A stretch of 61,994 nucleotides of DNA from Methanosarcinaceae archaeon. Lineage in GTDB: Archaea > Halobacteriota > Methanosarcinia > Methanosarcinales > Methanosarcinaceae. The stretch lies in contig JAIPUR010000013.1 in the NCBI GenBank assembly GCA_020055655.1, forward strand, positions 1-61,994, given 5' to 3'. This document shows, piece by piece, positions 16,927 through 17,170 of the stretch (position 1 is its first letter; each line of letters opens with the position of its first letter). Both the position numbers and the translations under genes were made by a program. Under the pieces are notes generated by a model. The model saw only the letters and a program-made list of their open reading frames with translations, was not told the origin of the DNA and did not search any database.

Positions 16927-17073
16927 ATGTCGACAGCTAAACAAACATACAACTGGAAAGAAAAACCCATCCAGAAAAAATATGAGAAAATATCAGGAAA
17001 TAAATGCATACTAAATCGTAAACACAAACATAAGAGGAAAAAATATGTCATTCAACAAAAGCAAAGGAAGTAA
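16927..17073 (+). CDS. Possible 48-aa basic leader peptide upstream of pylS
   Basis: ATG to TAA; starts about 30 bases after the TATA box and so could be translated from a nearly leaderless message. It is strongly basic (MSTAKQTYNWKEK at the start, RKHKHKRKK near the end). Its last 29 bases overlap the amber-containing frame that follows, in another frame. I recognise no family. It may be a real small protein, a leader that sets ribosome traffic, or chance. Confidence 0.35.
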   Translation: MSTAKQTYNWKEKPIQKKYEKISGNKCILNRKHKHKRKKYVIQQKQRK

Positions 17074-17170
17074 CTGGCTACTGGAATTCCTTGGATTCTA
17101 GGAAATGGTAAAAAAGAAGATTATATCCGAGGAGCTGTTAGCATGGATAAAAGATCACTGGACTCACTGA
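17045..17170 (+). CDS. Amber-containing upstream reading frame overlapping pylS
   Basis: ATG at 17045 has a good SD (GAGG, seven-base spacer). It encodes 18 residues ([18 protein letters not shown]) to a TAG at 17099-17101. The same frame then stays open for 22 more sense codons (beginning [18 protein letters not shown]) to a TGA at 17168-17170. Read as pyrrolysine, the amber gives a 41-residue peptide. The extension runs over the pylS SD (GAGGAG, 17129-17134) and its start codon (17143), ending 27 bases inside pylS. Stopping at TAG would leave the pylS SD free. This fits a leader sensing charged tRNA-Pyl. It is an inference from layout only. Confidence 0.45.

Follow-up and report, generated by a model that had tools for sequence, protein, structure and literature searches.

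A conserved leader peptide with a pyrrolysine codon before pylS as a candidate sensor of charged tRNA-Pyl

The leader peptides trpL and hisL of enteric bacteria act as attenuators of amino-acid operons, and such a leader holds a codon for the amino acid that the operon produces. Stop codons can serve in control as well: the release factor 2 gene prfB is under autogenous control via an in-frame UGA. In E. coli, the leader of selAB contains a SECIS-like RNA element that is bound by SelB. TnaC-type arrest peptides combine a short leader and a conserved Trp with an event at the stop codon, and the PYLIS elements (Rfam RF01982, RF02509 and RF02510) are structures within mtmB, mtbB and mttB, genes with an in-frame TAG in archaea that use pyrrolysine (Pyl), the rare 22nd amino acid.

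Here we describe a short frame in front of pylS, found in a 61,994-nt contig (JAIPUR010000013.1) of a Methanosarcinaceae archaeon; this whole stretch is called the window. As with trpL and hisL, a short leader with the codon of the product amino acid precedes a biosynthesis and charging operon. However, the codon at pylS is a stop codon, at which scarcity would lead to release-factor termination instead of a stall, no terminator or antiterminator RNA was found, and the leader is archaeal. With prfB it would share an early stop codon as sensor, where termination versus another decoding event sets the expression of the factor involved, but Pyl-tRNA would take the place of the frameshift as competitor, and a separate leader would be the sensor. 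As in selAB, the machinery for a recoded amino acid would be fed back through its own decoding signal; in contrast to selAB, no structure was seen, and the proposed sensor is a codon in a translated frame. Unlike in TnaC, the stop of the pylS leader is a Pyl sense codon with conserved codons behind it, and arrest is hypothetical here. The PYLIS structures of this Pyl user were found elsewhere in the window, not at the leader. The earlier note on this DNA knew of no description of the feedback that it proposed, and in open-licence papers we found no description of such a pylS leader.

On the forward strand of the window, pylS, encoding pyrrolysyl-tRNA synthetase (17143–18459; NF007083, 729 bits, cut-off 550), is followed by pylB (18469–19536; TIGR03910, 543 bits), pylC (19524–20624; TIGR03909, 487 bits) and pylD (20621–21406; TIGR03911, 347 bits). 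All four matches are far above the curated cut-offs. ARAGORN located pylT, encoding tRNA-Pyl with the anticodon CTA, on the reverse strand (10081–10152), 7 kb from pylS. In Methanolobus psychrophilus, for which a start-site map has been published, tRNA-Pyl is likewise distant from pylS (PMC5378194). A ramA-family corrinoid activase (21430–23058) lies 3' of pylD and is adjoined by a second similar frame of 246 amino acids that looks truncated (23182–23922).

The leader frame, also on the forward strand, begins with an ATG at 17045 and consists of 18 codons (17045–17098), a TAG (17099–17101), 22 further codons and a TGA (17168–17170) inside pylS. It runs over the pylS start, so that the Shine–Dalgarno (SD) sequence of pylS (AGGAG, 17130–17134) and its ATG at 17143 lie within the part behind the TAG, in another frame. 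On re-reading, these coordinates proved to be exactly those of the earlier note. The GAGC of the pylS SD block is invariant in A2 leaders. The leader itself is preceded by the SD-like sequence AGAGGA (17033–17038), which is moderate in the window; a purine-rich SD stands 5' of the leader in relatives too and is stronger there (GGAAGG, AGGAG). By direct reading, AAATATAAATA (16890–16900, forward strand) is a putative TATA box of the pylS transcript, whose start we infer. According to the comparative listing, this box is kept in Methanolobus as ACTATAAATA or ACTTTAAATA, about 24 nt 5' of an (AT)n-GTCGA block. A promoter-like block thus recurs in the window (16890–16935) and at Methanolobus loci: ACTATAAATA, about 24 nt, an (AT)n run and then GTCGATG or GCCGATG. 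Another upstream frame with an ATG at 16927 and 49 codons (16927–17074) overlaps the leader start in a different frame; it was rejected as a candidate, being without frame conservation in the upstream sequences inspected.

We scanned about 460 kb of the same genome for comparable arrangements. Among 212 genes with free upstream DNA, an SD-preceded ATG frame with a TAG and a read-through part overlapping the gene start was found at two, one of them pylS. Since 2 of 212 genes have such an amber frame upstream, the single-genome case is little proof. We used pylS loci sampled from GTDB genomes and from 112 genomes of the family, 101 of which had a pylS match (genus names were taken from titled GTDB records). 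The leader was present 5' of every pylS found in 27 Methanolobus, 5 Methanomethylovorans, 3 ANME-3-like (g14) genomes and 1 genome of a further genus, g2. A search of the 112 family genomes with a leader profile gave 37 places in 36 genomes, each directly 5' of pylS and each with one TAG. There were no copies elsewhere in these genomes, no other profile match was better than E=0.01, and the genomes lacking a pylS match had no significant leader match. Beyond the family, the phylum sampled yielded a distant PylS in a single genome. Set against the chance expectation, the conservation in 36 distinct leaders is decisive, and frame, TAG and spacing are all kept in the close relatives to which the earlier note had tied its idea. 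As is typical of amino-acid-sensing regulatory leader peptides, a short conserved ORF lies directly upstream of the genes concerned (36 distinct leaders, at pylS only), and it holds an invariant codon for their product, as pylSBCD makes and charges Pyl.

In ANME-3 HMMV (L048/L090), the two parts of an apparently split pylS lie about 1.8 kb apart, the gene carries a TAA, and the leader is without the conserved Trp; this has the appearance of joint decay of pylS and leader. Methanolobus vulcani PL 12/M (L010, L014), and also G062, carry two diverged pylS copies at contig ends, with an amber leader on both.

To describe selection on the leader, parsimony changes were counted by codon position on the pylS tree for the 36 distinct leaders, with p-values obtained by permutation. 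The nine codons before the TAG showed 15, 22 and 54 changes at positions 1, 2 and 3 (p=0.0008), and codons +1 to +5 behind it 19, 7 and 33 changes (p=0.007). From codon +6 the periodicity was gone (34/38/23). The remaining read-through frame (17117–17170) has no codon periodicity beyond +6, and its overlap with pylS no coding constraint beyond codon +5. The conserved stretch reads N-W-[IL]-L-x-[YF]-[LM]-G-[FL]-TAG-E-[LM]-[VIL]-x-K; in the window, its core NW[I/L]LxYLG[F/L] occupies 17072–17098, and the first five codons after the TAG encode EMVKK (17102–17116). From ATG to TAG, the length varies by whole codons (48, 51 or 54 nt, and once 66 nt from an alternative upstream ATG). The distance from TAG to the pylS ATG is 43, 44 or 46 nt in all of these leaders, which we refer to as type A.

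The TAG is invariant in 36/36 distinct leaders: all three columns are free of changes, against 6.2 changes on average at the third positions of neighbouring codons. Third positions of invariant Lys, Glu and Gln codons within pylS have a mean of 4.76 changes, and 1 of 25 has none; by itself, the invariance would thus be moderate evidence. Amino-acid selection acts on the codons behind the TAG, which would mean that the TAG is read through. Taken together, the comparison supports a frame that is translated, translation that passes the TAG, and a TAG that is not exchangeable for another stop. Decoding of the TAG within the leader, as the earlier note had assumed, is supported by the invariant codon together with the coding selection at +1 to +5. 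Coding selection acts on either side of the in-frame TAG, as expected for a Pyl-containing product. The existence of a conserved leader peptide with a pyrrolysine codon before pylS is well supported.

Such a frame might still be an ordinary short upstream ORF that loads ribosomes, its TAG a mere stop codon; by a rough count, about 14% of the long ORFs in the part of the genome that was sampled have TAG as their stop. We regard this as very improbable: none of the 36 leaders has TAA or TGA in place of the TAG while third positions close by change about six times, the codons behind it are under coding selection, and two further leader types, described below, use TAG too. Coding selection on either side of the TAG would also suit a Pyl-containing micropeptide with its own role in trans. 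This reading is quite unlikely, given that the frame occurs only directly 5' of pylS at a fixed distance, with none elsewhere in the 112 genomes, and that frameshifted or early-stopped C termini are tolerated.

We also considered the leader at the level of RNA. Single-sequence folds of five leaders were no better than shuffles (z-scores +0.3 to +1.9), and the consensus fold was weak (−1.85 kcal/mol), with no stable or covarying structure. Alternative hairpins or a terminator after the leader, as in a transcription attenuator, were accordingly not recognized. A stem-loop beside the TAG, as in PYLIS, was not seen either: Rfam gave no element at the leader, though three PYLIS elements were found in methyltransferase genes of the same window. 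The resemblance of GGATTCTAG to the anticodon arm of tRNA-Pyl, GGACTCTAG, speaks for a structured RNA, be it a PYLIS-like element or a tRNA-Pyl mimic bound by PylRS. However, the GGATTC bases vary synonymously (GGN TTY/TTA), and with the folds and the Rfam search this renders such an element extremely improbable. RNA structure, PYLIS and anticodon mimicry were thus rejected, and RNA structure as the explanation for the conservation of the leader is disfavoured.

The earlier note had proposed an alignment of four genera. Comparison of these genera confirmed the leader in Methanolobus; Methanococcoides and Methanohalophilus have other amber leaders in the same position, and Methanosarcina has no amber leader 5' of pylS. 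In Methanococcoides (11 genomes, 3 haplotypes), the leader is the unrelated MK[CY]FAIGA-TAG, with the TAG ending 4 nt before the pylS ATG, and the codon before the TAG varies at its third base only (GCC, GCT, GCA). Methanohalophilus (9 loci, 6 haplotypes) has a third leader with a weak SD and two in-frame TAGs five codons apart, both of which are kept amid diverging surrounding bases. We distinguish three leader types: that of Methanolobus and Methanomethylovorans, that of Methanohalophilus with two TAGs, and that of Methanococcoides with the TAG 4 nt before the start. Support for the latter two is weaker than for type A, the samples being small and closely related. In Methanosarcina and relatives (L023–L029, L118–L138), about 110 nt 5' of pylS are highly conserved, with a consensus fold of −19.4 kcal/mol and three predicted hairpins, the last of which pairs with the pylS SD. 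This region may represent another kind of regulator for this operon.

A coding frame before and just after the TAG, the invariant TAG, the fixed spacing and the exclusive link to pylS are established by comparison of the genomes. We infer competition at the leader TAG, occlusion of pylS, a negative sign and whatever effect there is on pylBCD. With every sign and variant taken together, the leader probably senses charged tRNA-Pyl in cis. For the window species, negative feedback by occlusion is the best single model, and we give it about an even chance. The leader of the pylSBCD operon would gauge charged tRNA-Pyl in cis through the competition for its TAG. At low levels of Pyl-tRNA, aRF1 would terminate at the TAG, 41 nt 5' of the pylS ATG, and ribosomes would load freely on the pylS SD. 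At high levels, Pyl would be inserted, and the ribosome would cross the SD and start codon of pylS out of frame and terminate 28 nt into the gene; pylS starts would become fewer and the operon would be turned down. Pyl insertion is thought to be a competition of Pyl-tRNA with the release factor (PMC9499178), and amber read-through in M. acetivorans is partial, amounting to 20–30% on a reporter (PMC2933860).

Termination–reinitiation involves a stop at most about 30 nt from the next start. Spacings above 30 nt show little coupling in Haloferax and E. coli, and ATGA is the commonest coupling geometry (PMC12548453). Because the window has 41 nt from the TAG to the ATG, more than the efficient coupling distance, termination at the TAG would leave pylS to independent initiation. 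In Methanococcoides, the stop lies within coupling distance (4 nt): termination there should couple and read-through should not, resulting in the same negative sign by another route.

The end of the read-through frame relative to the pylS ATG varies by species (−17, −5, +3, and +19 to +208). In the window and most Methanolobus it passes the pylS start, by 19–208 nt. However, in 5 of the 36 distinct type-A leaders it ends before the ATG, four species (L003, L005, L033, L065) having a TGA 4 nt 5' of it and one ending at −17, and all 5 distinct Methanomethylovorans leaders end on the pylS start itself (ATGA). As independent evidence, the overlap with pylS is not strong: the read-through reaches the ATG in 31/36 leaders, modestly above the 64% expected from a shuffle, a comparison from which relatedness was not removed.

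These ends run counter to a model with a single rule. After read-through, Methanomethylovorans and the L003 group come within coupling distance, and at such pre-ATG or ATGA ends read-through should help rather than hinder pylS. The same sensor could thus act with the opposite sign, Pyl read-through bringing ribosomes to the pylS start and switching the operon on by coupling. We find this unlikely, since the window and most Methanolobus overshoot the start and, in Methanococcoides, the coupling geometry belongs to termination at the TAG, not to read-through.

Conservation of the peptide also exceeds the need of a bare TAG sensor. The nascent peptide NW[IL]LxYLGF-(O)-E[LM][VIL]xK might slow or arrest the ribosome on the TAG or immediately behind it, in which case expression would be set by a pause over the SD of pylS instead of by the overlap. 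Amino-acid conservation extends from −9 to +5 and no further, its end keeps a nearly constant distance to the SD, the overlap is dispensable, and a ribosome that pauses around codon +5 or +6 would sit on the SD of pylS. The leaders of Methanococcoides and Methanohalophilus, which have no peptide sequence in common with it, argue against this, and we find it unlikely. Either lineages would differ in sign, or the conserved stretch from −9 to +5 would act on its own, for instance by pausing a ribosome over the pylS SD. Of the feedback proposed in the earlier note, sensing is upheld by the conserved leader, the invariant TAG, the selection behind it, the fixed spacing and the restriction to pylS; occlusion is not universal, as crossing of the pylS start applies to the window and most species but not to the five that end before the ATG or to Methanomethylovorans with its ATGA.

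UAG is both stop and sense in these archaea, and control of this ambiguous codon is an open question in Pyl biology; for Methanosarcina, constitutive pyl genes have been described (PMC4153887). If our reading is true, genetic-code expansion would be under direct feedback from a leader that gauges Pyl-tRNA against release factor. Archaea would also have a translated leader with a regulatory role, and Pyl-responsive switches could be built with it as a ready natural part. For the family, it is an even call whether amber leaders are a general sensor of charged tRNA-Pyl in Methanosarcinaceae, one that would have appeared or been reshaped in front of pylS on at least three occasions and by which an ambiguous codon would regulate its own decoding machinery.
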